In this document: one piece after another, positions 1 through 60,513 of the stretch
Numbering within the stretch: the stretch's first letter is position 1
How the letters are laid out: each line of letters starts with the position of its first letter
Assembly (NCBI GenBank): GCA_036362985.1
Contig: JAYGXS010000004.1
Coordinates: forward strand, 33,985,561 to 34,049,560
DNA length: 64,000 nucleotides
Source: Ligula intestinalis
Lineage: Eukaryota; Platyhelminthes; Cestoda; Diphyllobothriidea; Diphyllobothriidae
Direction of reading: 5' to 3'
Notes under the pieces: generated by a model
The model's input: the letters and a program-made list of their open reading frames with translations, nothing else
What the model was told of the DNA's origin: nothing
The model's database searches: none
Program-made: the position numbers and the translations under genes

Positions 1-2580
1 CAACCGGGGTGAAATATAAGCATGCTGATTTGACACCTTCCTCTGTATTAAAAATTAACGCTTTAGCGTACCATACTGACAGCCTAGTTTCTCACTAGAA
101 GGCCCAGACACACGTTCTGCCGGTATTCTGCAGCTGCTTGACACAGTTGCGAAGGGTCCAGCTCATCAGTGGGACACACAGCTTTCCCTATCTGCTTTCT
201 GATTGATATACCGGTTTTCAACTTTCAGCTTTTTAATCTCCGTCGAAATAAATTTCTGATCGCGGTGTATATCAGTTAATTGAAGTTTTGTAGGCGAAGA
301 CCGAAATTGTCAGTGTATATTTGTGTTAAACCCGTCAATTTTTGCAAAATGTGCACATACTGCCTACAGGCAGTCCTCAGAAGTGCAAACTGACGTTGTA
401 GTCTGCAATACTCACAGCCCTGGTACTTGCTAAAAGGCCAAGACACGTGTTTTGCCAGTATTCAGCTGCTCCTTGACACAGCTTTGAGACGTCTTGCTCA
501 TCAGTGGGACACACAGCTTTCCTTATCTGCTTTCTGATTGATATGCCTGTTTTCAAATTTCAGCTTTTTAATTTGCGTTGTAATAAATTTTTGATCGCCG
601 CTTATATCAGTTAATTAAAGATTTTTAGGCGTAAACCGATATTGTTAGTGTATATTTTTGTTGAAAACCGTCCATTTCTGTGAAATATACACATTCTGCG
701 TACACTCAGTCCTCGGTCGTATAAACTGACGTTGTAACCTGCAATACTTACAGCCCTGGTACTTGCTAAAAGGCCAAGACACGTGTTTTGCCAGTTTTCA
801 GCTGCTGCTTGACGCAGCTGAGAGGGGTCCGGCGAAACAGTAGGTCACGCCAGCTTTCCCTGTGCGCATTCTGGTTGACATGCTGGTTTAAATCTTAGCT
901 TTTTAATCTTCGGAGATATTAATTTCTGATCAAAGTGTGCTTTGGTACATTTAAGGTCTATAGGCGTAATCCGAAATTGCCTGCGTATACTTGTTTTGAA
1001 ACCCCTCAAGCGGGGTGAAATATAAGCATGCTGATTTGACACCTTCCTCTGTAATAAAAATTAACGCTTTAGCGTACCATACTGACAGCCTAGTTTCTCA
1101 CTAGAAGGCCCAGACACGCGTTTTGCCGGTATTCTGCAGCTGCTTGACACAGTTGCGAAGGGTCCAGCTCATCAGTAGGACACAGCTTTCCCTATCTGCT
1201 TTCTGATTGATATACCGGTTTTTTGAATTTCAGCTATTTAATCTCCGTCGAAATAAATTTCTGATCGCGGTGTACATCAGTTAACTGAAGGTTTGTAGGC
1301 GTAGACCGAAATGGTATGTTTATATTTGTGTTGAAACAAGACAATTTCTGCAAAATGTGCACATTCTGCCTACAGGCAGTCCTCAGTCGTACAAACTGAC
1401 GTTGTAGTCTGCAATACTAAGAGCCCTGGTACTTGCTAAAAGGCCAAGACACGTGTTTTGCCAGTATTCAGCTGCTGCTTGACACAGCTTTGAGATGTCT
1501 TGCTCATCAGTGGGACACACAGCTTTCCCTATCTGCTTTCTGATTGATATATCTGTTTTTAAATTTCAGCTTTTTAATTTGCGGCGTAATAAATTTCTGA
1601 TCGCCGCTTATATCAGTTGATTGAAGTATGTAGGCGTTGACCGATATTGTATGCTTATATTTTTGTTGAAAACCGTCAATTTCTGTGAAATATACCCATT
1701 CTGCGTACACGCAGTCCTCGGTCGTATAAACTGACGTTGTAACCTGCAATACTAACGGCCCTGGTACTTGCTAAAAGGCCAATACACGTGTTTTGCCAGT
1801 ATTCAGCTGCTGCTTGACACAGCTGCGAGGGGTCCGGCGCAACAGTAGGTCACCCCAGCTTTCCCTATGCGCATTCTGGTTGACATCCTGGTTTAAATCT
1901 TAGCTTTTTAATCTTGGGAGATATTAATTTCCGATCAAAGTGTGCTTTCGTACATTTAAGGTGTTTAGGCGTAATCCGAAATTGCCTGCGTATATTTGTT
2001 TTAAAACCCCTCAACCGGTGTGAAATATAAGCATGCTGATTTGACACCTTCCTCTGTAATAAAAATTAACGCTTTAGCGTACCATACTGACAGCCTAGGT
2101 TCTCACTAGAAGGCCCAGACACGCGTTTTGCCGGTATTCTGCAGCTGCTTGACACAGCTGCGAAGGGTCCAGCTCATCAGTGGGACACACAGCTTTCCCT
2201 ATCTGCTTTCTGATTGATATACCGGTTTTTTTACTTTCAGCTATTTAATCTCCGTCGAAATAAATTTCTGATCGCGGTGTATATCAGTTAATTGAAGGTT
2301 TGTAGGCGAAGACCGAAATTGTATGTTCATATTTGTGTTGAAACCCGTCAATTTCTGCAAAATTGCACATTCTGCCTACAGGCTGTCCTCAGTAGTATAA
2401 ACTGACGTTGTAACCTGCAATACTAAGAGCCCTGGTACTTGCTAAAAGGCCAAGACACGTGTTTTGCCAGTATTCAGCTGCTGCTTGACACAGCTTTGAG
2501 ATGTCTTGCTCATCAGTGGGATACACAGCTTTCTCTATCTGCTTTCTGATTGAAATACCTGTTTTCAAATTTCCGCTTTT
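1..2580 (+). repeat. Satellite array with three-monomer higher-order repeat
   Basis: Tandem monomers of about 335 bp. Three monomer types recur in the same order, giving a higher-order unit of about 1005 bp that starts near 1, 1006 and 2011. Type A starts with GTGAAATATAAGCATGCTG and alone carries a short palindrome, ACGCTTTAGCGT. Types B and C start near 337/1346 and 671/1681. Copies of the same type in successive units look nearly identical, while neighbouring types differ clearly, which is the mark of recent amplification of the trimer. Read on the - strand, each monomer carries a hammerhead-like core (CTGATGA near the middle); in this block the second core element is mostly AAAA instead of GAAA. 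No coding function is supported. Confidence 0.9.
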
Positions 2581-4254
2581 AAATTTCTAGAGATATTAAT
2601 TACCGATCGAAGTTTATTTCAGTATATTGAAGGTCTATGGACGTATTCTAAAATATTTAGCGTATATTTGTGGTGATACCAATCGACCGTGGTAAAAAAA
2701 CGCATGCAGACATAAGAATATCCTCAAGGGGTCCGGCACATCAGTGGGTCAACCCAGCTTTCCCTACCTGCTTTCTGTCTATAATACCCAGACAAGTGTA
2801 TTGCCGGTATTCTGCCGCTTCTTGACACAGGTGCGAGTGATCCGGCTCATCAGTGGGTCACTTTAGCTTTCCCTATCTGCTTTCTGGTTGATATACCGGT
2901 TTAGAAAGTTCAGCTTTTTAATATCTGGATAAATTTTTTTCGGATCGCGCCATTTATCTGTATATTGAAGTTCTATAGACGTAGACAGAAAACTTTTAGT
3001 GCATATTTATGTTGAAACCCGTCGCCCTTGTGGAATGTAGACATGCTGCCATCATAGAGTACTCAGTAGTATAGATTGACGTTGTAAATTACGACACTAA
3101 CAGCCTAGGTACTTGATAAAAGGCTCAGACACGTATTTCAGCGGTATTCGGCCACTGCTTGACACAGTATAGATTGACGTTGTAACGTACAATACTAATG
3201 GCCTGAGTACTTGATAAAAGACCCCAGACATGTGTATGGGCGATAATCTGCCGCTGCTTTACACAGCTATGAGGGGTCCGGCACATCAGTAGGTCACATT
3301 TTCTTTCCCTATCTGCTTTCTGGTTGATATACCGGTTTTGAAAGTTCACCTTTTTAATCTCCGGAGTAATTAATTTCAGATCGCAGCATTCATCATTATA
3401 TTGAAGTTCTATACGCGTAGGCCGAAATTTTAAGCGAATATATATTTTGAAACCCGTCAACCACTGTGAAATATACACATGCTGCCTACAGACAGTCCTC
3501 AGTTGCATAAACTGTCGTTGCTACTTGCCATACTAACATCCAAGGTACTTGTAAAAAGATCCAGACAAGTGTATCGCCGGTATTCCTCCGCTGCTTGACA
3601 CACGTGCGAGTGATCCGGCTCATCAGTGGGTCACTTTAGCTTTCCCTATCTGCTTTCTGGTTGATATACCGGTTTAGAAAGTTCAGTTTTTTAATATCTG
3701 GATAAATTTTTTTCGGATCGCGCCATTTATCTGTATATTGAAGTTCTATAGGCGTAGACAGAAATTTTAAGTGTATGTTTTTACTGAAACCCGCCAACTC
3801 TGTGGATTATTGACATGCTGCCTTCAGGGAATTCTCAGTAGTATAGATTGACGTTGTTCCTTACCATACTAACAGCCTACGTTCTTGATAATGACCCAGA
3901 CAAGTGTATCGGCGGTATTCTGCCGCTGCTTCACACAGCTGTGAGGGATCCGGCTCATCTTTCGGTCACCATAGCTTTCTCTATGTAAAGCTGCGGAATA
4001 TAGACATGCTGCCTTCATAAAGTCCTGAGTAGTATAGATTGACGTTGTAACTTACCATACTATGAGCCTTGGTACTTGCTTAAAAGCCCAGACACGTGTT
4101 TTGCCAGTATTCCTCCGCTGCTTGACACAGCTGCGAGGGGTCTGGCTAATCAGTGTTTCACCCAAGCTTTCCCTTTTGCTTTCTGGTTGATATACCGGGT
4201 TTGAAATTTCAGCTTTTAATCTCTGGCGAAATTAATGAATGATCGCGTTATATA
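2581..4254 (+). repeat. Diverged satellite monomers, left of the transposon
   Basis: Same 335-bp satellite family but more diverged and with irregular spacing. The conserved monomer landmark TTGACGTTGTAA occurs near 3069, 3174, 3848 and 4037, so some monomers are truncated or rearranged. The - strand copy at about 3558-3634 has stem I GACCCA/UGGAUC, CUGAUGA, stem II GCCGG/CCGGC and GAUA in place of GAAA. The array breaks at a TATA-containing site where the pogo/Tigger element has inserted. Confidence 0.85.
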
Positions 4255-4280
4255 CAGTGGAGTCTGGTTAATGTGGACAC
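4255..4280 (+). repeat. Left terminal inverted repeat of the pogo/Tigger element
   Basis: 26-bp terminal repeat beginning CAGTGGAGTCTGG, preceded by the TA target duplication. It is the inverse of 6301-6326 with one mismatch. Confidence 0.93.
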
Positions 4281-4390
4281 CTCCGTTCCAGGCCAACTGT
4301 GCATATTAACCGGTTGTCCACATTAAGCGCACTGTCTCCAAATCAGTCGTTTTACGTATAAAAAACAGAATTTTGCATTTGAATGAAGTT

Positions 4391-5956
4391 TTATTGAAAG
4401 AAAATGCTCAGTTTTGATTGCTTTGGTGAAAACTTTTCTCTTAAAGCTCCCCTAAAGTTCTTTATCACAGTGTCAAAATTCTCCACATCAAAACCTTGTT
4501 GTCGATGCCCCGTTTCGAGTACGGCCAGTGCCACCCTCATTTCTTTTGATGAGACTGGGAGCTCGACTTCTTCATCTTCCTCTTCAGAGTCTTCTTCCTG
4601 CTCGTCTGGTACCTTCTTGGCATCTGCAACTGCTTCGGCGAGTTTGCTTGCCACCTCCTCCAGTGTTGCCTCCTCGGCGACTTCGGCATCGTCGTCGATT
4701 GAAACCCACTCTAGAAAACTCTCGATCCTGTCCTCTGTCACGTCTTCTGGGATCGGAATCGCGACTTCATTCTCTGCAACTTCCTCTTCAGTGGTGACGA
4801 AACCCCCTTTCCTCCAGCAATTTACGATTGTCTCCGACTTCACCTTTTTCCATGAAGTGCTCAACATCTCCATGGCCTGAAGAACGTCAATCTTCTTCAC
4901 AACGTTGTGAGCCAAACGCATGCCAGTCTCATCGTCTTCCACTACGTCTTGGATGATCTGCAAAATCTCTCGCCGGATCACGGTCCGAAAGAAGGCTTTA
5001 AGAGATCGAATGATGTCCTGATCACAGCGTTGCAGAACTGAAGTTGTGTTGGGGGGCAAAAATTGAAGTGTGATGTTCCTCAGTCCTTCGACTCGAGTGT
5101 GGGCACTGCAGTTATCTGCCAAGAGAAGGATCTTGCGCTTCTGGCGCCCCATTTCGAGGTCAAGTTCTCGTAAGAAATTTTCCCACAGCCCAGACGTCAT
5201 CCATGCGTTCTTCCCGAATGCGTAATGCACTCCCGATGGAATGTTTTTTCTTTTTAAGCACCTTGGCTGCTTTGATTTCCCGACCACAAGAAGCGGTAGT
5301 TTTTCTCCTTCCAGACTGCACGTAACCAGAGCGGTGATTCTGTCCTTCGCCGTTTTTAATCCCTTTGCCGACTTCTTTGACTACTGGGTCGGGTACGTTG
5401 AGTCTGGAAGTGCCCGAAAATAAATTGCTGTCTCGTCAGTGTTGAAGACATCCTTGGGTTGAAACTGCTTCAACAGGTCAGGCCAATCTTTCTTGAGGAA
5501 ATCATCAGCTCTGGAGGTGTCGGCTTCTGCTGCCTCACCACGCAGAGTCGCAAAGACGAGTCCATTTCTCTTCTTCCGCCTCGCAAACCACCCTACGGTA
5601 GGAGTGAAGTTGACCCCCGCTACTTCTGCGATGTTCGCAGCCTTCTCCATAAGCAGCGGACCATTGAGAGGGATGTTACGATCGTGGGCCCAATGATAAA
5701 ACTGCAAAAGTGCTGCCTCGATATCCTTGTCCTTTCCATATCTATTGCGTTTCTGTGCATGGCCTTGTTCATCTTCTGAAGCCTCATGACGAAGTTCCAC
5801 CTCTTTTTTCACCAATTTTCCCAACATCAACTTGGAAACTCCAAGCTGGTCGGCTGCCTCTCGAAGACCCATTCGGGGTGACTGCTTCTTACGGTCATGG
5901 AACTTGCCCAAAACATCCAGTTTCTCTGTTGGTGTTCGATCCTTTCGCTTTCCCAT
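4391..5956 (-). pseudogene. pogo/Tigger transposase, interrupted by one amber stop
   Basis: A DDE transposase of the CENP-B/pogo group that would cut and paste this element. The reading frame starts at the ATG at 5956 and stays open to 4391 except for a TAG at 5381-5383, after about 191 codons. Both halves are in the same frame, about 521 codons in all, which fits this family. N-terminal helix-turn-helix: DRTPTEKLDVLGKF to about residue 50. A second CENPB-type helix-turn-helix covers about residues 75-135 (NFTPTVGWFARRKKRNG). The first catalytic Asp is in FNTDETA (residue 174), the second in LLLADNCSAH, the third in LQRCDQDIIRSLK. An acidic stretch precedes the C-terminal LSIFFQ. The stop lies between the first and second catalytic Asp, so without readthrough no active enzyme is made. 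The rest is hardly decayed, which argues for a fairly recent insertion. Confidence 0.9.
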
Positions 5957-6300
5957 CTGGGAAAGAAGGGAAAGAAAGATTGCAGAAGTCGAAGAACGAC
6001 AGTCGAAAGCACTTCACTTTCGCGTCATCAGGCTCCACACGTACACAACCACAGGCAAGCCAACAGAAAAGCTTTGTGCACTGTTCATCTGAAGCAAAAC
6101 TTTCAGAACAGGATGCGGGAATTCCCCTCCGCGGGCGATTTGGAGTGGATTTTTGACAAAATCTGTGGGTCGACCGACCGGTTGACAGCTTGGTGCTGTC
6201 CACATTAAGCGGTGGCTGTCCAGATTAACCGGAGGATTTTACTATGGAGAAATTCCGTTCCTGGCCAACTGTCCACATTAAGCGGTTGTCCACATTAACC

Positions 6301-6326
6301 GTGTCCACATTAACCGGACTCCACTG
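6301..6326 (-). repeat. Right terminal inverted repeat of the pogo/Tigger element
   Basis: 26-bp repeat ending GGACTCCACTG, followed by the TA duplication at 6327-6328 and then by satellite sequence in the same phase as before the element. Confidence 0.93.
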
Positions 6327-7891
6327 TATCAGTAAATTGAAGGCTTATAGGCGTCGACCGAAACTGTTTGGGTACATTTGTGTTGAAACCCGTTGCCCCT
6401 GTGGTATATAGGCATGCTGCCTTCAGATAGTCTTCAGTAATATAGATTGACATTGAAACTTACCACACTAACAGCCTAGGTATTTGATAAAAAGCTCAGA
6501 CACGTCTTTCAACGGTATTCGGCCGCTGCTTGACACAACCTCAATGGGTCCAGCACATCAGTGGGTCAACTCAGCTTTCCCTACCTTCTTTGCGGTTTAA
6601 ATACCGGTTTCGAACGTACAGCTTTTGAATCTCTGGAGAAAAAAATAATTTCTGATTGCGGTATATAACGGTATATTTAAGGTCTATAGGCGTAGACGGA
6701 AATTTTACGCGTATATTTGTGTTGAAACCCGTCAAACACTGTAAAATATACACATGCTGCCTTCAAACGGTCCTCAGTATTAGAAACTGACGTTGCCACT
6801 TACCATACTTACAGCCCAGGTACTTGCTAAAAGACCCAGACTAATGTATCGGTTGTATTCTGCCGCTTCTTGACACAGGTAAGAGGGATCCGGCTCATCA
6901 GTGGGTCACCCCAACTTTCCCTATCTGCTTTCTGGTTGATATACCGGCTTTGAATATTCAGTTTTTTAATCGCCCCAGAAAAAAAATTACTTCTGATCAT
7001 GGTGTTTATCAGTATAGTGAAGATCTATAGGCGTAGACCGAAATTGTAAGTGTACATTTGTGTTGAAACCCGTCACTCCTGTGGTTTATAGACAAGCTGC
7101 CTTCAGAGAATCCTCAGTAGTATAGGTTGACGTTGTAACTTACAAAACTAACGGCCTAGGTACATGCTATAAGACCCAGACAAGTGTGTCGCCGGTATTT
7201 TGCCGCTGCTTGCCACAGGTGCGAGGGGTCCGTCTCATCAATGGGTCACCCCAGCTTTCCCTTTTTCTTTATGGTTGATAAACCGGTTGTGAAATTTCAG
7301 CTTTTTAATCTCTTGAAAAATGAATTAATGATCGCAGTATGTACACGAAATTGAAGGTCTATAGACGGAGACTGAAATTGAAGGTCGATAGACAAGCTGC
7401 ATTCACAAAATCCTCAGTAGTATAAATTGGCATTGTAACTTACCATTCTAGCAGCCAAGGTACTTGGTAAAATACCCAGACAAGTGTATCTGTGGTATTG
7501 TTGCCGCTGCTGCACACAGTTGTGAGGGGTCCGGGTCATTAATGGGTCACCGATGCTTTCCTATCTGCTTTCTCGTTGAAATACCGGTCTTGAAATTTCA
7601 TCTTGTTAATCTCCGGAGAAATTAATTGCTCATCGCGGTATATATCAGCATATTGAAGGTTTATAGGCGTAGACCGAAATTGTAAGTGTATATTTGTGTT
7701 GAAACCCGTCACCCCTGTTGAATATAGACATGCTGCCTTCAGAGAATCCTCAGTAGTATAGGTTGACGTGTTAACTTGCCAAACTAACGGCCTAGGTACA
7801 TGCTTTAAGACCCAGACACGTATTTTGCCGGTATTCTTCCGCTGCTTGACACAGCTGCGAGGGGTCCGCCTCATCAGTGTGTCACCCCAGC
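6327..7891 (+). repeat. Satellite monomers, right of the transposon
   Basis: Continuation of the 335-bp satellite in the same orientation as 1-4254. Landmarks recur near 6450, 6787, 7128 and 7428; the last interval is short (about 300 bp). The - strand hammerhead-like cores here carry changes such as CTGATGT, TTGATGA, GATA and GACA. The copy near 6835 keeps perfect stem I strands (GACCCA/TGGGTC). The array stops abruptly at the orientation switch at 7891. Confidence 0.88.
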
Positions 7892-8681
7892 GACAATTTC
7901 GGTCTACGCCTATAGACCTTCAATATGCTGATATATACCGCGGTCATTGATTAGTATCTCCGGAGATTAAAAAGCTGAACTTTCAAAACCGGTATATCAA
8001 CCAGAAAGCAGATAGGGAAAGTTGGTTGACCCGCTGATGAGCCAAACCCCTCACAGCTATGTCAAGCAGTTGAGGAATACTGGCGATACAGTTGTCTGGG
8101 TCTTTTAACAAGTACCTTGTCTAATAGAAAGGTAGGTTACAACGTCAATCTATACTACTGAGAATTCTCTGAAGGCAGCATGTCTATAATCCACAGGGTT
8201 GACAGGTTGCAGTACAAAATGCACTTAAAATTTCTGTCTACGCCTATAGAACTTCAATATAGTGATGAATGCTGCGATCAGAAATTTATTTCTCCAGATA
8301 TTACAAAGCTGAACTTTCTAAACCGGTATATCAACCAGAAAGCAGATATGGAAAGCTGGGGTGACCCACTCATGAGCCGGACCACTCGCAGCTGTGTCAA
8401 GCAGCGGAGGAATACCGTCGATACACTTGTCTGGATCTTTTTACAAGTACCTTGGATGTTAGTATGGTAAGTTATAACTGAGGATTCTCTGAAGGAAGCA
8501 TGTCTATTTACCGTATGGGTAACGGGTTTCAACAAAAATAAGCACTTAGAATTTCGGTGTTCGCATATAGACCTTCAATATACTGATAAATGCAGCGATC
8601 AGAAATTTATTTCTCCGGAGATTTAAAAGCTGAACTTTCAAAACCGGAATATCAACCAGAAAGCAGAAATGGAAGCTGGTT

Positions 8682-8757
8682 TTACCCACTGATGAGCCAA
8701 ACCCCTCAGAGATGTGTCAAACAGCGGCAGAATACCGGCGAAACACGTGTCGGAGCC
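8682..8757 (+). ncRNA. Hammerhead-like ribozyme copy with intact core, damaged stem I
   Basis: Core CTGATGA at 8689-8695 and GAAA at 8740-8743. Stem III is AC-ACGT-GT followed by C (H17, 8751). Stem II is partly kept (GCC with GGC). Stem I is poor: TTACCCA before the core against GGAGCC after the cleavage site. It is probably not active, but it supports GAAA as the ancestral second core element. Confidence 0.4.
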
Positions 8758-9358
8758 GGTAAGCAAGTACCTTGGCTTTTAGTATGGTAAGTTACAAAGT
8801 CAAGTTATACCACTGAGGATTTTCTGAAGGGAGCAGATGTATATGTCAGACGGGTTGACGGGTTTCAACACGAATATCCACTAATAATTTCGGTCTACGC
8901 CTGTAGACCTTCAATCTACTAATCTATACCGCGATCAGAAATTAATTATTCCGGAGATTAAAAAGCTGAACTTTCAAAACCGGTATATCAATCAGAATGC
9001 AGATAGGGAAATCTGGGATGACCCACAAATGAGCCCGATCCCTCGAGGTTATGTCAAGCAGTGGCAGAATACCGGTAAAACACGTGTCTGAGCCTTTTAT
9101 CAAGTACCTAGGCTATTAGTATGGTAAGTTGCAATGTCAGTTTATACTACTGAGGACTGTCTGAAGGCAGCATGTGTATATTTCACAGGGGTTGACGGGT
9201 TTCAACACAAAAATACACTAACAATTTCGGTCTACGCCTATAGTCCTTCAATACACTGATATATCGCGATCAGAAATTTTTTTTTTTCTCCTGCGATTAA
9301 AAAGCTGAACTCTTGAAACCCGAATATCAACCAGAATGCAGACAGTGGAAGCTGGGGT

Positions 9359-9433
9359 GACCCACTGATGAGCCGGACCCCTCGCAGCTGTGTCAAGCAG
9401 CGGCAGAACACCGGCGAAACACTTGTTTGGGCC
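9359..9433 (+). ncRNA. Candidate type I hammerhead ribozyme in the satellite monomer
   Basis: All parts of a hammerhead self-cleaving RNA are visible. Stem I: GACCCA (9359-9364) pairs with TGGGCC (9428-9433), five of six positions. Core: CTGATGA (9365-9371). Stem II: GCCGG (9372-9376) pairs perfectly with CCGGC (9411-9415); its 34-base loop can form a further GCTG/CAGC hairpin. Core: GAAA (9416-9419). Stem III: the last A and C, loop ACTT, then GT (9425-9426). Position 9427, T, is H17, so cleavage is predicted after it. Both free ends lie in stem I, hence type I, the class known from schistosome satellite DNA and Penelope-like elements. In a tandem transcript each monomer could cut itself out. 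Self-cleavage is inferred from the motif, not shown. Confidence 0.6.
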
Positions 9434-9509
9434 TTTAAACAGTTCATAGGCTCTATGTATGGTAATTTTTTAACGTCATTTTATACTTCTGAGGACTGTC
9501 TGAAGGCAG

Positions 9510-10964
9510 TTCGTTTCATTTTTTACTCTTAGCTTTCACCTGCGTAGCTTGAATGCATTATACAATGCTGTTTAAAGTGAATGGTAATTAAACTTTCAGG
9601 GGTTAGTAGGATAAATATGTGAATGTCTTATCTCATAAATTGTTGATCGAAGTTCCGAAATCTGATTTCGGTGAGAAATTATTAGCATATGGTTAGTACA
9701 ATACTAATAAGCTTGCGGCAGATTTGCAGGAGCTGGTGTCAGTTTTTGAATGCAATTCTTCCCGGTTGCCTATGAAAGCCGCGCTCGGAACGAAATTGTC
9801 AATGAAGTAGACTGCATTTTTCCCGTTTAGTTCCATTTTTTTTATGAATTTAAACGTATTTTATAGATTATGCACGAACTACCCTTTCCCGTGATCATAT
9901 CGTATCGGATGCCATCTTCTTCAAATTAATTTACTCAAATAATGAGAAGGGTTTTTAGGACCGTCGACTGTCATGTTAAATTTTCGCTTATCTGTCCGCT
10001 TGTGAAGGCCTGTTATGAAATACGGTGGAGTGTCGGTGGATGAATACCTCCATCTACAAACATTGAAGGTAACCAGCAAGCCACTAACAGAAAACTTGTT
10101 TCGATTGACGAGCTTCTGTTCAGTTTACGAGTAGTCAGCGCTCGTGCGTGTGTGCCTGTGTCCACGTTTGAGTTTTGCTCTCAGGGCGTGGATTCTCAGT
10201 CGCCTGCGGCCAATCAGTGAACTGGTGCAGTTTGATTGGCACCATTTTGCACGACAAATGTTTCACACGATGGAGGTTCTACTGCATATGAAATTAGCCA
10301 CGTAGATTGCAAATTAACTGAGCCCTATATGGTGTCTTTATAATGGCATAGAGGTGTACGATTTCCCTTACAAAGTTTTGTAAACTACAGTAAAATCACA
10401 CTTTTCCCGACAATTTTACGATTATACTATCTATAGTTCCTGATATATTCCTAAGGATATTTACCACTTCATACGTTTAATAAAAAACATTAGTAAAACG
10501 TACACGTAGGAGGACACCCGTGCGGGAAGTTCAAAACCTTAAAAATTCCGGAAATGAAAATTTTTGAAAAATGAATTTTCTTCCTTTCTTTGAGCGTAAA
10601 GTATGAAGAAGAAAGCTTTTGCAAAATGAACACAAGCGATATTTTATGTTTGCCTTCACTCATTTCTGACTAAGCGTCGAATTTTTAAGCTGCTTTGATT
10701 TTTGCACGCAATCATAAGACAGCATTCCGCTGTGACAGATATACTTTGAGGTCCTGTTACACGATAAGTAGTATTACAATACTACCAAAGGAAGCCTTTG
10801 TATTTGAAAACTAGTGAAACATTTTCGTTAGCGTTTGAAGAGGAATGCATAGGGAAACTCTTCACATTGCCCAATGAAAAATTGACACAAACCATCTGAA
10901 TGGACAGCGCAACCTTTCGCACCTCCAGTGCCCTAACTGTCTTCGCTGGTCGTATGTCAAATGT
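9510..10964. other. Non-coding sequence between satellite and assembly gap
   Basis: AT-rich sequence with no supported gene, tandem repeat or transposon protein. It may be intron or intergenic DNA of the coiled-coil gene whose last exon follows the gap. Confidence 0.5.
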
Positions 10965-34576: not shown

Positions 34577-37500
34577 TCAGTCACTGAGGGTTAGGTCCTC
34601 CCCCCACCAGGCGGTGATTGTTGGCAGGGCCAGGCTCTGGACGCATGCTGTTGACGGTTTGACACCTTCGGGCTGGTCGAACACCTCGTTCACAACCACC
34701 TCCATACCAGTCCGCGCAGCTTCGGCCCTCACCATCATTCGAAGACGGTCCACATCGTCAGTAGTATAAAGGCTGCTAGAAGATTCGGTGTCAGTGGCTG
34801 CAGGACCGAAGAAATCTCGAATAGTAGCCGCGTAGTGACGCCAGAGCAGGCAACTTTGTGGCAGCAGGGCAAGCGCCTCGGCATAGCACTCCAACAGGTA
34901 ATTTTGTAACCGCAGCCTTACCACTGGATCTACTAAAGGAGTCAGAAACCGTACACCTAATGACACCACCATCAACCAGAAGGTCTCATCGACGGGTCGT
35001 TCGAGACGAGAGATTAGACAGAGACTCTGTAACAGCCTAACATGACCTGCCCTAAGAAGTGAACCGAACATGACCTTCAGAGCGTTGTGGCCGTAAGTTT
35101 CTACAAGCCTAACGCACAGACTATTAGGCGGATGCTCTTCAGTAAACTTGCTCCAGTTAATCTGCTGAAGAAGTTCTAGGAACCAGGGAGGCGGTGAGTC
35201 GCAAAAATAACTATCTCCAGTGAAAAGGTCTAGAAAGAGGAGGGTCTCTAAGGCAGAGTTGTAGGCTTGGGGTGAGTTCTCGCAGGCGGCCAAATGCAGA
35301 CCTAAATGAATCAATAGAGCAATACAAGGGAAGGGGAAGCTATCGCCAAAATAAAAGGAACCAAAGTCAAAAGCCTGACAGTTTGTAGTAAGGTAGTGCA
35401 GTAAATCCTGCAGGAGCGAATCATTGGAGGAAGTGGAGGTAGAGTACAGACCACAGCACATCCAGAGGAAGAGAATGAAACGCGGCTCGAATCCCTTCAG
35501 GTTAAACGGTTCATTCAAGCCAAGAAGGACACGAAAAGCGGGATATACCGCCGAAGGCTCTACTGAGGGCAGAAACACAAGGCTCCCAACCAGTTCGGAG
35601 AGCAGACTGCAGCATAAATCTGTCTTTCCAGAGCGATGCATAAGACACGCAAAGAGAAACGCATACTCGCTCTGAAGGCGATGGTTAGCAATGTTTGAGA
35701 CACAGTTGAAGGCCTCGACATCACCAGCTTGGAGGCAGAGGCTCGAAAAGTTGACAGCGGTCGCAAAAAGAAGATTATCCTGGAGTTTTAGAGCGCCAGC
35801 AGGCTCCAAAAAGTTAAGACAAAAAGCGGCCGCCTGTGCATTCTCACCAACAGCCGCAAGGAATTGTACATACACGTGAATGAAAGACAATACAAAGGAG
35901 TAGGTAGACTGGGGCAATTCAGCGGCCTGACAGTCGGCCAAAAATGTCCGGACGCTAGTGGGAAAGCCCAAATCATCCTCAACATTACGAAACAGATTGG
36001 CCTGTCTAAGCAAATGTTCAGACTCAAAGAGAACTACATGACCGGCGGCGCGGATGAAATCGTCTTGTGGAAAAGTGTTAGACAAATCAAACAGAAGACG
36101 AAGGTACCAAACGCCCCAACGGGCTGGATGACCAGGAGGCAACTGCCTCCAAGTTATCTTAGTAAAACCTAAAAGATCGTCAGCCAGTTGGAGACCAAAC
36201 CGAGAACGGCACACATCCCATTCTAGTTTGGCTGCATAGAAAACGACTGTGGTTATGGGATTTAATAGGCGCACTGATTGCTTAAATGAATCAATGTGGC
36301 AGTGCGCTTCCCTCAGAAGGTGCCGCAAGGCAGCCCTCAGAAGCTGGCGGCGAAGTGATAGAGTAAGTGAGGGGTGGCTTACGACGTAGGCAACAAAGTG
36401 GACGGAAAAATCTGAACAAGCTAGACAGTTGATAACTGTGCGCACAAAATCGTTCGAAAGGCTCTTGCGTAACTGTAAAATTGTATACAGATGATGTACT
36501 ATGAGGCGTCTGTCAACTGAGAAGGAACTGATAGTTGGCGAAGTGAGGACAAAGAGACGGGTCCAATCGATTTCCGAGCTTGGAAAATTTGCGTAGATTG
36601 AATGCCAGTTGGTTAAGTTGTCACAGTGTTGGGGAACTGCATCAGAAACTTCATTAAAAACAGTATTACAAACGGGACAAACAGCACAAGAACTCGGAGA
36701 ATGGGCCCTATCCTTGTTGGCCGGGGAATAAACGCCTCTGTATCGCTGTCGCGAAAGCACAGGCGGGTTACTCAAGCCAGTGGAGGGGTGTTGAAATTTA
36801 CACGCAGAATCAAGGCAATTGCCGTCGAGAAAAAACGGACATATTGGTGTGAGGGGGTCAATTTTTTCAGCACAGATAACTTTAGTAGACTTGGAGGACG
36901 TTGCATTCATTGGACGATTTGCGGGCTTATCTGTCGCATTTAATTGAGGTTGAGGTAGGCCAAAATATCCGAAAAATGGCGATGAAATGCGAAATGATAA
37001 CTCAAGCTGCGGAAGCAGAGCCTTTAAATTTTTGACGGCATTAATGAAGGTCGGTGACGGAAGCTGAGGGGGCAAAGGAGGTCGCGGTGGTGGTGGGAGA
37101 GGAGGCGGTAACGGGGGCGGTGGCAAGGTTTTCGGTTTGGTTTTCTGACTAGAAATGGCAGCCCTCCGAGCCATCTGTTCAGCAGCACTATTCATCCTAA
37201 GTAGCTGCTGTTGAGCACGTTGAAGCTCCGTTACTGTCATCGACTTCTGCCTGTTTACCTGCATAGTAGCTAGGCGGGCATTAGACTGCAACTCTAAAGT
37301 ACGCTGTAATTTGGCCCTGAGAGTAGCTAAAGCAGTGGTTAATTTTGCTTCAGTCTTTTTGCGTTCTATTACTAGCTTCTGCTGACGTTTTAGGATAAGT
37401 TTAAGTTGCTCGACTTTAGTAGCCTGACGCAAAACCAGTTTTTTATAGGAATCTAGAGAGAGCTGAGGCGTGGAACGTTTAACAGACAGGGCACCCGTTA

Positions 37501-37951
37501 GCGGTTTAGACTTATTGACAAGGGTGGAAGGGCTGGCAGTAGACACAAAAAGTGACATCTTTTTGCCGTTGGACGAAACACCATTGTCCGACAAAGAGAG
37601 GGTGGTTTCTGTTTGCGAACGCTTCAAAGTAGTCTTAGAAACTGACGGTTGGGAGGATAAGATGCTTTGTGTTCGGACAGAAGTACAGCCAAGAGTGACG
37701 CTAACCACCGGCGCCGCATGGCACATGGATTGCAGCTCATCGTCACTCGATTCGTCGGATGAGGCGCTGAGCGTCACAATGAATCGTGACTTTGGCTGCG
37801 GAATGAGTGGCTGTAAGGGAGAGGGCGAAGAAACTGGAAGGGACCCGGCCTTAACTTCCGTGTCTGCAGAGGATAAGGACTGGCTGTGATTTGCGTGTTT
37901 TGAGAAACTAAGTAGAGCTTTCTTTCGAAGTTCAAGTTCATCCGTCGAAAC
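34577..37951 (-). CDS. ZFC3H1: ZFC3H1 orthologue, large 3'-terminal exon
   Basis: Zinc finger C3H1 domain-containing protein, the scaffold of the PAXT connection that links polyadenylated nuclear RNA to the MTR4 helicase and the exosome. The exon is open without interruption from about 37951 to the stop at 34577. In order it shows: an acidic serine motif FIVTLSASSDESSDDE, which matches a conserved block of the human protein; a coiled coil (about 37450-37160); a proline run (TLPPPPLPPPLPPPPRPPLP); and the diagnostic finger CPFFLDGNCLDSACKFQH (36789-36841) with spacing C-x7-C-x4-C-x3-H, identical to the human finger. A long helical, TPR/HAT-like half follows, ending in AEALALLPQSCLLWRHYAAT and EVVVNEVF like the human C-terminus. 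It is shorter than the human protein of about 1990 residues. The 5' splice choice is ambiguous: AG at 37952 keeps TDELELRKKALLSF, whereas AG at 37864 (CCTTATCCTCTGCAG) fits the upstream donor phase. Confidence 0.93.
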   Translation of the reverse strand, partial: VSTDELELRKKALLSFSKHANHSQSLSSADTEVKAGSLPVSSPSPLQPLIPQPKSRFIVTLSASSDESSDDELQSMCHAAPVVSVTLGCTSVRTQSILSSQPSVSKTTLKRSQTETTLSLSDNGVSSNGKKMSLFVSTASPSTLVNKSKPLTGALSVKRSTPQLSLDSYKKLVLRQATKVEQLKLILKRQQKLVIERKKTEAKLTTALATLRAKLQRTLELQSNARLATMQVNRQKSMTVTELQRAQQQLLRMNSAAEQMARRAAISSQKTKPKTLPPPPLPPPLPPPPRPPLPPQLPSPTFINAVKNLKALLPQLELSFRISSPFFGYFGLPQPQLNATDKPANRPMNATSSKSTKVICAEKIDPLTPICPFFLDGNCLDSACKFQHPSTGLSNPPVLSRQRYRGVYSPANKDRAHSPSSCAVCPVCNTVFNEVSDAVPQHCDNLTNWHSIYANFPSSEIDWTRLFVLTSPTISSFSVDRRLIVHHLYTILQLRKSLSNDFVRTVINCLACSDFSVHFVAYVVSHPSLTLSLRRQLLRAALRHLLREAHCHIDSFKQSVRLLNPITTVVFYAAKLEWDVCRSRFGLQLADDLLGFTKITWRQLPPGHPARWGVWYLRLLFDLSNTFPQDDFIRAAGHVVLFESEHLLRQANLFRNVEDDLGFPTSVRTFLADCQAAELPQSTYSFVLSFIHVYVQFLAAVGENAQAAAFCLNFLEPAGALKLQDNLLFATAVNFSSLCLQAGDVEAFNCVSNIANHRLQSEYAFLFACLMHRSGKTDLCCSLLSELVGSLVFLPSVEPSAVYPAFRVLLGLNEPFNLKGFEPRFILFLWMCCGLYSTSTSSNDSLLQDLLHYLTTNCQAFDFGSFYFGDSFPFPCIALLIHLGLHLAACENSPQAYNSALETLLFLDLFTGDSYFCDSPPPWFLELLQQINWSKFTEEHPPNSLCVRLVETYGHNALKVMFGSLLRAGHVRLLQSLCLISRLERPVDETFWLMVVSLGVRFLTPLVDPVVRLRLQNYLLECYAEALALLPQSCLLWRHYAATIRDFFGPAATDTESSSSLYTTDDVDRLRMMVRAEAARTGMEVVVNEVFDQPEGVKPSTACVQSLALPTITAWWGEDLTLSD

Positions 37952-45299: not shown

Positions 45300-45660
45300 C
45301 TGCGCCTTTGAACTTTCTATTTGTCATATCAAAATCTCAAAAACTTTTAACAATTTTAACAAGTTTTCAGTCAGAAAATATATACAGTCACATGGTGCAG
45401 TGGTGTTTCAAGGCTAATCTGTCACATATTTCCCGTAGTGCTGTAGCATATGTATATAAAGTCGGTTTTTCAATGTCTCCACAGATTGGGACCTATTAAT
45501 CATCTCGGGAAAGTTATTCCACGGCTCCACGACCCGATTAGGAAAAAGATACTTCCTCACATCCAATCGTCCTTGGGGGCACATACAGTTTGAAGGGATG
45601 TCCCCAGAGATTAGTTGAAGTGGTGAGTTGCAAAAAGTCGTCACACATGACACTTACGAC
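45300..45660 (-). mobile_element. LINE reverse-transcriptase C-terminal fragment
   Basis: The - strand frame 45653-45414 encodes the typical C-terminal block of CR1/Jockey-like LINEs (GRLDVRKYLFPNRVVEPWNN, then FPEMINRSQSVETLKNRLYI). It sits between the two inverted Penelope-like copies. It is 5'-truncated. Confidence 0.75.
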
Positions 45661-45694
45661 ATCAAAAGACTCAGCAGTTAGCGCCTAAAAAGTT

Positions 45695-46460
45695 TGTTTT
45701 TCTTTCTTTGTCCTCTAAGGGCGATAACATTCTGAATAACATAAAGAGACGCCTTCTCAACGCCATTGAAAGAACTTACTATGCTGCCGAACTCATAATT
45801 TACAATCCAACGAAGCCCTTACCAATTATTTGTGCGAAGGATGCCTTGCAGTTGCACGCCACTTCAAAATTTGTTAACGAATTTACATGCACTTGCGAAT
45901 GCAAGTACATAGGGCTAACGCAACGGCAATTGGCCACCAGGGCTAAGAAGCATTTACCTAACTCTTTATTAAAACAAGAAAACAGAATTTTCTGTTCCTC
46001 GATTAACGATCATATGCTTGACACGGGCCATCCTGTTGACCCCGAAACTTCTGTCTGAGTACTTGTTTGGGCACGAACAACTCATACCTTACGCTACCTG
46101 GAGGCAACCTACATATGGTGGTCCAAACCCAACCTATGTAAACAGCTGGAACATGTGGTGAACCTAACTCTGGCGTGGTAACATTGGCTCCCTGTTTAAA
46201 TATTTACCCTCCCGACTTCTTCCCTGAGACATCTTTCCCCGTTTTTGCTGCCCAAAGTGTTTTAACTTTCTTAGGTTATTGATTAGCCCCTGAGCCATTT
46301 CTTATGATCCTGTTGTTTGTATGGATTATTCTGTATGAATTCAAATTGCATTTTCTCTTACACGGTTCACGTTATGCAATGAGAGGCAGCAAATGAAGAG
46401 CTCTCTCAAAAGGTCATGGATCCAGTAAATCCTGCTGTTTTTGCCGTCTTTAAATTTGCA
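45695..46460 (+). mobile_element. Penelope-like element, 3' fragment with GIY-YIG domain (right copy)
   Basis: The frame 45708-46058 covers the end of the reverse-transcriptase connector (IERTYYAAELIIYNPTKPLP) and the GIY-YIG endonuclease (FTCTCECKYIGLTQRQLATR, AKKHLP, then INDHMLDTGHPVDPETSV). After one stop the conserved tail continues (LEATYIWWSKPNLCKQLEHV, VNLTLAW). The GIY-YIG nuclease of these elements nicks target DNA for reverse transcription. The 5' part (reverse transcriptase core) is absent. The 3' region 46092-46460 is the inverse of 44150-43785. Confidence 0.83.
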
Positions 46461-49584: not shown

Positions 49585-50034
49585 AGGTTATTGGGTTAGG
49601 CTGTGGCGGGTTATCAGAGGGCAGATAAATGGAGGGATAATTGCTGCTATTTGCGCGCAGCGAACGAATTTAACTGGGTTCGGGGGCAAAATGCGATCGG
49701 CTTCTGGCGTCGGGGTTGGCCATGGAATTGCAAGTGCTTCTATCTGCTTCTTTTGACAACACAGCACTGGATTTGCTAGCCGCATAGCCACTGCTTCGGC
49801 TGTTGCAAGCACCCGTTGGCCTTGACCCTTGAAAAAGTTGGCTGGTGTCCGGTAGACAACATAAAAGGCTTCGTTAGTATCAACTCGATGATTCGTATCG
49901 ACAAGATGTGCAAGAATAGAACTCGAGATTGATGTTGTTTCACATTTACTCAACCAGACCAGTATTTGTTCACTTACCCTCTTTTCCAGGCGCCTCGTTG
50001 TTCGGCCAATGTATCCCGCTCCACAGGAGCAAGT

Positions 50035-50553
50035 CACTTTAAGTCACTTTATTAAGGGAAGAAGGCTTTCGCCCTTGAACTCCCTATTCATAACCAAAAT
50101 CGCATAATAAGTCCACCGTAACAATAGTACCTAATACAAATGTACAAATGTAGGCTTAACATCAGCGATAAGTGTGAGGCAGTTGCAAGGTGTTTCTACT
50201 GACACTTTGTTCATTATATCTGCCACAGTTTCTCAGCAAATGAGAATCAAGTTTGTGTTTAAAAATGTCAACAGTATCTGAGAGGACCACATCTTCCGGG
50301 AGTCCGTTCCACGCTCCAATGACCCCCTGAGAGAAGGCGTTTCGTCGAAAGTCGATGCGGGCCGGTTTCCTCTGTAGTCTAAAAGGATGACCTTACAGAT
50401 GGTCAGTCCGAGCCAATTCAAAGAAATAATCAAACTCTAGGGCACAGTCTTGGCCTCTAACAATACGGTAGGTTTGTATGAGGTCCCCGCGGAGTTGCCT
50501 TTAATTGAGAGGGAAAAGATTAAGTTCGGTCAGTCTGTCTTCATAAGGCAGAT
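50035..50553 (-). mobile_element. CR1-like LINE, 3' fragment (copy B), with 8-bp target duplication
   Basis: A 519-bp 5'-truncated LINE in the - direction: LPYEDRLTEL at its 5' end, RGQDCALEFDYFFELARTDH, RIDFRRNAFSQGVIGAWNGL, then the 3' UTR ending TTCCCTTAATAAAGTGACTT with the terminal AAGTGACTT partly repeated. It is flanked by GAGCAAGT on both sides (50027-50034, 50554-50561). Same family as 41597-42094. It cuts the Penelope-like ORF just before the GIY-YIG domain. Confidence 0.88.
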
Positions 50554-57564: not shown

Positions 57565-60513
57565 AGGTGTTTTGGTTTACGTTTGACGTTTTGGACGCCC
57601 AGATCTATTTATTCATCTTCAACCCATCTTAGCCTGAAATTGCTGCTGAACTGTTTCTCTGTCAAATGGCCAAGGATCGCCATAATAAGTCGGTGCGAGT
57701 TATTCAGCTGAAATTGAACAGCATGATAAAACTCATCAATAAATTTAAATTTTCGAAGCGTTTCGGTGCCATATGTACACTGTTGAGTGGCAAAAGAGAG
57801 GATTGCCTTACGCACACATTTTGGTCTGGCTGCAGGAAAACATTAAATTCTGCTTATGTTGACAAATTCGTATGTGCCGAGTTGGCCAACCTGGCGGCTG
57901 ACCCTATTCTGTTTGAAACAGTCAAAACGCAGATGGTGCATGGTCCATGTGGTGAGCTTAACCCCAGCAGCCCTTGCATGAAGGATAGTAAAGGCACTAA
58001 AAAGTATCCCAAGCAGTTCATTGACACAACTCAGACTGACGCAGGCGGCTTCCCTCTGTACAGACGAAGACGGCCTGAGATTGGTAGGTTCACAGCTGTC
58101 GTCAATGCGAGGCAAAACGGACGTGTGGGAATCAATAACCATTGGATTTTGCTGTACGCCCACATCAATGTCGATTTTTGCAACTCTTTAAAGTCCATCA
58201 AATACGTCCGCAAATTCATTAACAACGTCTCCGATGCAGCTATGTCTTCTCTCAACCACCTTTCACGCAACGAAGAGATTACTCAATCTGAAATGAGCCG
58301 ATACATCAGCAGCAACGAGGCTTTCTGGACAACCGTTAGTTTTGATATCCACAACCGAGTTCCGGCCCTTGAACATATAATCGTCCACCCTGACAACGGC
58401 CAACGGATTTACTTTACGGAGGAATCCTTAGCGGCTCAACTTCTAAATACTTCAAATTGTGCCAGCAAGATGGATTTGCCCAGACGCTTTTTATGTTGAT
58501 GTCCCCTCCTACTACACTTGTAAACAACACACGTGGGCCCGGCAAAAGAAAAGAATGGTGGTTGAAGGGCATTCATAAATCAAATGCGATTTTAAACTGG
58601 GTCGGATTTACACCATTCATTTATCTAAACAAGAGTGTTGTTTCGTACGAATGCTTCTTCACGAGGTTTGGGGTCTAACATCTTTTGAAGATATCAGAAC
58701 GGTGGATGTTTCTTTGTGTTCAACTTACAGAGGAGCCTGCATGATACGTGGTTTACTTGAAAATGACAATCGTTGGGAGAATACAATTGCTGAGGCTGTT
58801 ATTACAAACACTCCAAACCAACTACGGTGCCTCCTTACTTTGTTGATTAGGAGTTGTGAGTTGGTATGCCCTTGCGGCCTGTAGTTAAAGTTCAGCAGTT
58901 ATATGGCTGAAGACTTCCGGTATAATCTGCAGTTGCAAAATGGCGATGCTCACATTGACTTTAATTCCGCCATCTTCAACATGGCCCTCATTTCCATTGA
59001 AGATAGATTGTTTGCCATGGGTGGCTAGCAACTTCATACATACGGATTCCCTCTGCTTGGCAGGAGCGTTGGAAATCAACTCCCGACTGAACTGCAGCGT
59101 CAGCTTTGTTTAAATGTTACCAAGCTGGCAGCATACGTTTCTCTGAACAAACCAAGGCTACTGGTCGACCAACTGCCCTCATTCAACACTTTTCTTGACA
59201 GTGGTTATGGTCGCAGTAATGGTGATCACGTTTTCTTTTTGGATGCTCCTGGTGGAACTGGCAAAACTTTCGCCCTCAAGCTGCTCCTTGCCGAAATGCG
59301 CAAAGACGGCAAATTGTTTTGGCTGTTGCATCGGCTGGTATTGTAGCGACGTTGCTTCCTGGCAGCAGAACTGCTCACAGTACCTTCAAGCTTCCTCTTA
59401 GGTTATCCGTCGATGGTACTGCAACATGCCACATAAGCAGAGGCAGTTGTTCAGCTGAATTGCTGAAGCGATGCTCAGTAATAATTTGGGACGAGTGCAC
59501 AATGGCAAGCAGGATTGCACTAGAAGCGCTGCATAGAACTGCGTGATATCACAGAAAATACCGCTCCATTTGGTGGCATTCGAAATGTTTTATCTGGCGA
59601 TTTTTGTCAGTCTCTACCTGTGGTCCAAAGGGGTACCAGTGGTGATCAGATAAAGTTTTGCCTGAAATATTCACCATTATGGTGTACGGTAAGGCCATTG
59701 GAACTCACAACCAATATGAGAGTGCACCTCAATGACCATAAGTCCGACAAGTTCTCCACTAATATCTTGAAGATTGAAGGGGGTTAATCAAAACCGATGC
59801 AACTGGGCGCATCTCCCGTGCTTTTCTTGCTAATTTTTTGAGCAGTGGTGACGAACTAAGAGAAAAAGTGTTCCCTAACCTCCAAACAGATTTCTCCGAC
59901 GTTAAGTGGCTCTGTCAATGCGGTATTCTGGCCTCCAAAAACAAATTCGTCAATGCCATTGACGAGAGACTAACCCACTTTCTGCCAGGTGTGAAAAAAC
60001 TGTGAAAATCCTTCGGTACAACAGTTGATCCTACAGATTGCGTTAATTATCCAATTGAATTCCTGAACCGTTTGGAAATGCCTGGCGTCCCTTTTCATAA
60101 ACTGATTCTGAAAGTTGGCATACCGATTATTCTCATGAGAAATCTGGACGCACCATGGCTATGCAACGACACTAGGCTGACTGTCCAGCGTCTGACGAGC
60201 TATCTGATAGAGGCCACCATTATTACCAGTTATGCGAAAGGGGATATTGTTTGCATTACTCGCATTCCCATCATCCCTTCCGATACCACCTTCAGTTTAC
60301 GGCGTCTGCAGTTTCCCGTGAAAGTTTGCTTTGCAATGTCCATCAACAAGTCCCAAGGTCAAACCTTCAAGGTGGCTGGACGTCCCCTTGAAGAATTGCA
60401 CTTTTCCCACGGCCAACTCTATGTTGCCATATATTGAGTTGGTTCAAAACGGAATTTATACGTTTGGGCACCCCACGGGATTTCGAAGAATGTTGTTTAC
60501 TATGAAGAGTTGA
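57565..60513 (+). pseudogene. Helitron Rep/helicase, decayed
   Basis: Rolling-circle DNA transposon protein (Helitron-like Rep plus PIF1-type helicase). Readable blocks in order: a PDLFI/FNPS-stop-PEIAAELF start (57595), the Rep region with QKRGLPYAHILVWL (57790-57835), CAELANLAADPILFETVKTQ, MVHGPCGELNPSSPCMKDSK, NGRVGINNHWILLYAHINVD, MSRYISSNEAFWTTVSFDIH, LLHEVWGLTSFEDIRTVDVS. The helicase follows: Walker A DAPGGTGKTF (59242-59271), Walker B VIIWDECTM (about 59479), DITENTAPFGGI, LSGDFCQSLPVVQRGTSGDQ, VKVCFAMSINKSQGQTFKVA (about 60320), and an end near YEEL. At least ten stops or frameshifts. The first His of the HUH motif reads Tyr (TAC, 57809-57811). The longest open part is 57666-58499. 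The 5' part of Rep is missing. Confidence 0.88.

Follow-up and report, generated by a model that had tools for sequence, protein, structure and literature searches.

Hammerhead ribozymes are already known from animal satellites, among them the SMalpha (W36.2) satellite of Schistosoma mansoni, described as tandem units of 333-335 bp with an active type I hammerhead and altered cores in some copies (PMC8490949). They are also known from animal non-LTR retrozymes, reported as tandem repeats of about 170-400 bp, with type I hammerheads and a GC content below 50%, by a source which further describes invertebrate hammerheads with a stem III of 2 bp and a tetraloop, and names platyhelminths in general among hammerhead or retrozyme hosts (PMC7229834). 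In the pDo500 satellite of Dolichopoda cave crickets, the hammerhead region is reported to be better conserved than the rest of the unit, with G12 changed in 1 of 198 (PMC2837043). Penelope-like elements, in turn, are described as carrying type I hammerheads in tandem, often dimeric (PMC7761336, PMC6155905), and in two related tapeworm genomes the share of Penelope elements is reported as about 10% (PMC8166898). Among the papers searched, by title and abstract, none reported a hammerhead from tapeworms or other cestodes.

The window (i.e., the whole 64-kb stretch of Ligula intestinalis DNA that was analysed) begins inside a tandem array, which occupies its first 9.5 kb in units of about 335-340 bp, the GC content of the first 10 kb being 0.41-0.47 (coordinates in Table 1). 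Array copies share on average 74.6% of their bases (range 62.7 to 96.7%), and the array is therefore old. At its left end (89-2540) a higher-order repeat of about 1004 bp is formed by three defective monomer types, whose like monomers are 91-97% identical. The array's orientation switches abruptly at about 7890, marking an inversion junction, and a DNA transposon (4255-6326) interrupts it. The ends of this element match, a TA duplication flanks it (4253-4254 and 6327-6328), and the frame of its transposase (DDE_1, HTH_Tnp_Tc5) is broken by one in-frame stop. A whole-monomer search of the window returned matches between positions 2 and 9516 only; exact repeat patterns, three searched against viral contigs and one against genome contigs, gave 0 matches, and no homologue was found for the translated array frames. 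The largest frame outside the array (34577-37951, minus strand) is 95% identical to a Dibothriocephalus latus protein over 84% of its length; identity is 78% with Schistocephalus solidus and 76% with Spirometra erinaceieuropaei, which assigns the window to a diphyllobothriid tapeworm. A frame at 60006-60437 (plus strand), in which the Pif1 helicase 2B domain was recognised (E=1.3e-14), is possibly a Helitron remnant. Two others, at 45651-46058 (plus) and 49588-50043 (minus), show a possible likeness to the GIY-YIG region known from Penelope-like elements; Pfam gave no support.

Table 1. Coordinates in the window of the hammerhead-like motif, its parts, related copies and the array.
Feature	Position	Strand	Remarks
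Type I hammerhead-like motif	9359-9433	+	Sole copy with core intact and stems near-complete
Stem I, 5' strand	9359-9364	+	Partner 9428-9433; A9360.C9432 mismatched
Core CTGATGA (positions 3-9)	9365-9371	+	
Stem II, 5 bp	9372-9376 with 9411-9415	+	Whole stem-loop 9372-9415
Stem II loop, 34 nt, predicted inner hairpin	9377-9410	+	Predicted hairpin 9/9 pairs in the 9359-9433 copy
Core GAAA (G12, A13, A14, A15.1)	9416-9419	+	
Stem III	9419-9426	+	A9419-C9420 with G9425-T9426 (A-U, C-G pairs), loop ACTT
H17 = T	9427	+	Predicted cut after T9427
Stem I, 3' strand	9428-9433	+	
Second core-intact copy	8664-8769	+	Stem I 2/6, stem II 3/5 pairs
Copy with stem I 6/6 pairs and A14 to T	8010-8114	+	Hammerhead_1 18.0 bits at 8028-8102, gathering score 34
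Array part, sense minus	1-4254	-	Window starts inside array
Array part, sense minus	6329-7891	-	
Array part, sense plus	7890-9516	+	5 hammerhead-region copies

Type I hammerhead anatomy is complete in one array copy and partial in the rest. In the complete copy the core has no defect (CUGANGA, GAA, A15.1-U16.1 and H17 are all present) and the stems follow in type I order, with 5/6, 5/5 and 2/2 positions paired in stems I, II and III, stem I consisting of four contiguous pairs and, beyond the A.C mismatch, a single G-C pair. This is the anatomy that the earlier note had read off the letters, and it was read correctly, as was the length of the stem II loop with its predicted inner hairpin. A descriptor requiring CTGANGA, a stem II of at least 4 bp, GAAA, a stem III of at least 2 bp with a loop of 3-8, an H17 other than G and a stem I of at least 4 bp finds this copy alone when run on both strands of the window, and a relaxed scan for a minimal hammerhead of the Penelope-like kind elsewhere in the window returned nothing but the same copy (at 9365). 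Like the hammerheads of Penelope-like elements, that of Ligula is of type I and in tandem; unlike it, they are minimal and usually devoid of stem III nucleotides, and no Penelope element could be linked to the array. The likeness to SMalpha (taken from its description in PMC8490949) covers the setting, i.e., a flatworm, a tandem unit of about 335 bp, a type I hammerhead and copies with altered cores, and retrozymes share the unit length within 170-400 bp, the GC below 50% and the 2-bp stem III with its tetraloop.

The state of the motif across the array was followed by nhmmer with positions 9340-9445 as query, which returned 25 copies at E<1e-3, reduced to 23 once the truncated 2769-2664 and 3215-3110 were dropped. 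The earlier claim that the same parts are recognisable in almost every monomer does not hold in functional terms. Stem III is fully paired in 22/23 copies, stem II has at least 4/5 pairs in 20/23, and H17 is never G (C in 21 copies, A and T in one each), but all bases of the core are jointly intact in two copies only. Taken separately, CTGANGA is intact in 13/23 copies, G12 in 10 (changed in the other 13, the commonest base of this column being A, with 12/23) and A14 in 14 (lost in 9); G12 or A14 is lost in 20 copies, out of the 21 with a defective core. Stem I reaches at least 5/6 pairs in 14/23 copies, whilst A15.1, G16.2 and U16.1 are invariant in all 23. The intact GAAA is a single base away from each of its two commonest variants, AAAA and GATA. 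In a tree of the 23 monomers, whose backbone is weak (5/20 inner branches starred), the GATA and the AAAA copies cluster, which the two copies with GAAA do not. CpG decay was considered as a cause of the G12 to A change, and is not strongly supported, since the window's observed/expected CpG ratio is 0.84.

The Infernal check against Rfam, suggested in the earlier note, came out negative: no Rfam family reaches its gathering score in the window, and the best hammerhead results stay below it, with 21.0 bits for Hammerhead_3 against a required 48.5 and 18.0 bits for Hammerhead_1 against 34. Narrow searches, made on 121-base stretches for four of the 23 copies, gave Hammerhead_3 at 9330-9450 (21.0 bits, E=0.015, aligned to 9348-9425) and, in the type I register but below threshold, Hammerhead_1 at 8000-8120 (18.0 bits, E=0.04, aligned to 8028-8102) and 2090-2210 (13.9 bits, E=0.94, aligned to 2112-2186), in both cases behind v-snoRNA-1 (E=0.034 in the former); at 2765-2885 no hammerhead matched. 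A further search ranked sX6 (E=0.053) above Hammerhead_3 (E=1.3), and at equal E unrelated families fit the same stretches as well or better. The type I register was preferred to a type III reading, for which Hammerhead_3 could be fitted only by deleting three positions on the strand of the cut site, and in which base 16.1 would lack its required pairing.

Conservation does not single out the hammerhead within the monomer. Its paired and core columns average 85.4% of the majority base, against a mean of 83.7% elsewhere in the monomer (p=0.13). Ranked among all columns, G12 (52%) falls at the 2.4th percentile and A14 (61%) at the 8.2th. Columns of loop II average 88.1% (p=0.008), a conservation with no known ribozyme reason that may reflect another constraint. 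The monomer's most conserved 10-mers sit in this loop (9377-9410 and its equivalents), around CTGTGTCAAGCAGC. Pairing across copies is kept in 82.6% of cells, compared to 81.4% after shuffling (a value reached by 44/500 shuffles); when the inner hairpin is counted too, the figures are 81.2% and 81.0% (172/500). Sliding the structure along the alignment gave 25.6 to 39.4% (32.2 to 48.3% with the inner hairpin), figures to be read with the structure's derivation from one of the aligned sequences in mind. Changes on both sides are seen in one of 13 pairs only (G-C to A-U, in 5 copies), not above shuffles, and RNAalifold does not predict the hammerhead from the aligned copies.

One rival reading is that the array is an ordinary satellite, one diverged copy of which happened to complete the hammerhead consensus. 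Besides the absence of excess conservation and of covariation beyond shuffles, such chance resemblance would account for the single complete copy among 23 and for the A majority at G12, and it agrees with the unremarkable fold of 9340-9445, which is matched in stability by 106/200 shuffles (z 0.01). What speaks against it is the rarity of the motif. First-order Markov surrogates gave 45 relaxed descriptor matches in 953.6 Mb, or 0.0030 per 64 kb, and only 2 in 953.6 Mb (0.00013 per 64 kb) when a stem II of 5 bp or more and a stem III tetraloop were required. These figures somewhat overstate the surprise, since related CTGANGA sites are plentiful in the array (72 observed on both strands of the window, 31.9 expected), and so many tries weaken the argument from low expectation without removing it. 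Relaxing G12 and A14 gives five matches in the window, all in the array, compared to 0.0018 expected (21 in 746.9 Mb), the five being related copies rather than independent occurrences. On balance we consider chance resemblance unlikely; it nevertheless has to be taken seriously, all the copies examined having come from a single array.

The opposite reading, i.e., that the motif is a working processing site at which array transcripts cut themselves into monomers of about 335 nt that circularise, as the earlier note had proposed, is not supported by this work and appears improbable. The intact core at 9359-9433 would allow for it, and both unit length and setting are as described for animal retrozymes (PMC7229834) and SMalpha (PMC8490949). 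Against this, 21/23 copies have core defects, and the commonest of them, G12A, is reported to slow cutting by the full-length hammerhead about 10^5 to 10^6-fold (PMC2553840). Release of unit-length RNA needs two live neighbours, and no two neighbouring copies of the array are both complete; cis-cut monomers are therefore not expected, and since no more than one copy is plausibly live, neither monomers nor circles of 335 nt should come from this array. Even in the 9340-9445 region, the predicted minimum fold is not the hammerhead but a structure 6.5 kcal/mol lower, in which the core is sequestered. Circular folds were predicted for two monomers, and neither is unusually stable or unusually self-paired (z -0.90 and -0.56, 100 shuffles each), a difference from retrozymes, as far as predicted folds go. 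A different division of labour could be imagined, in which the rare intact copies cut defective ones at the sites that these retain, either in trans or dimerically, two copies joining to form stem III. It would make sense of a cut-site half kept throughout (U16.1 and an H17 other than G in 23/23) next to a catalytic half intact in 2/23, and of the perfect 8-nt palindrome made by stem III and its loop in 8/23 copies, since such palindromes have been reported to make dimeric hammerheads possible (PMC3088659). However, the retained bases may merely be unmutated, the conserved columns are unexceptional as a set, and the 9340 copy itself is palindromic at 6/8 bases only, so we regard such cutting as very improbable. 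The idea may be extended to a split system, in which most copies would have lost their catalytic bases whilst keeping the cut site and a palindromic stem III, and defective copies cut by the rare intact ones would spread parasite-like; this we find hardly credible.

The interpretation we favour, and consider probable rather than secure, is that the satellite of about 335 bp is a mostly decayed type I hammerhead repeat of the SMalpha/retrozyme sort, derived from a hammerhead-bearing ancestor. The claim of a satellite hammerhead in the earlier note thus holds in part: one copy has the anatomy and the setting fits flatworm and retrozyme precedents, whilst no Rfam model supports it at gathering score. 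Descent from an active type I ribozyme is suggested by GAAA being one change from both AAAA and GATA, and by the near invariance of the cut-site bases. The ribozyme would since have largely decayed, most copies being marked by one or other of two presumably inactivating changes, the first affecting G12 and the second A14, and the array would have grown at the DNA level after this loss, as the 1004-bp repeat, composed of three defective monomers, suggests. The 9359-9433 copy could in principle still cut after 9427, probably slowly, given its U17, its 4-bp stem I and the competing fold. The Ligula array differs from SMalpha, whose hammerheads are active, in having core defects in 21/23 copies and in its 34-nt loop II. 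It shares with pDo500 a type I hammerhead borne by an invertebrate satellite, and departs from it in showing no excess conservation of the hammerhead region and in the change of G12 in 13/23 copies.

Processing of RNA into unit lengths at this locus finds no support here. Should the satellite indeed descend from a hammerhead, satellite hammerheads would extend to diphyllobothriid tapeworms, and here a satellite would have outlived its own ribozyme, unlike in cave crickets, where the core was kept.
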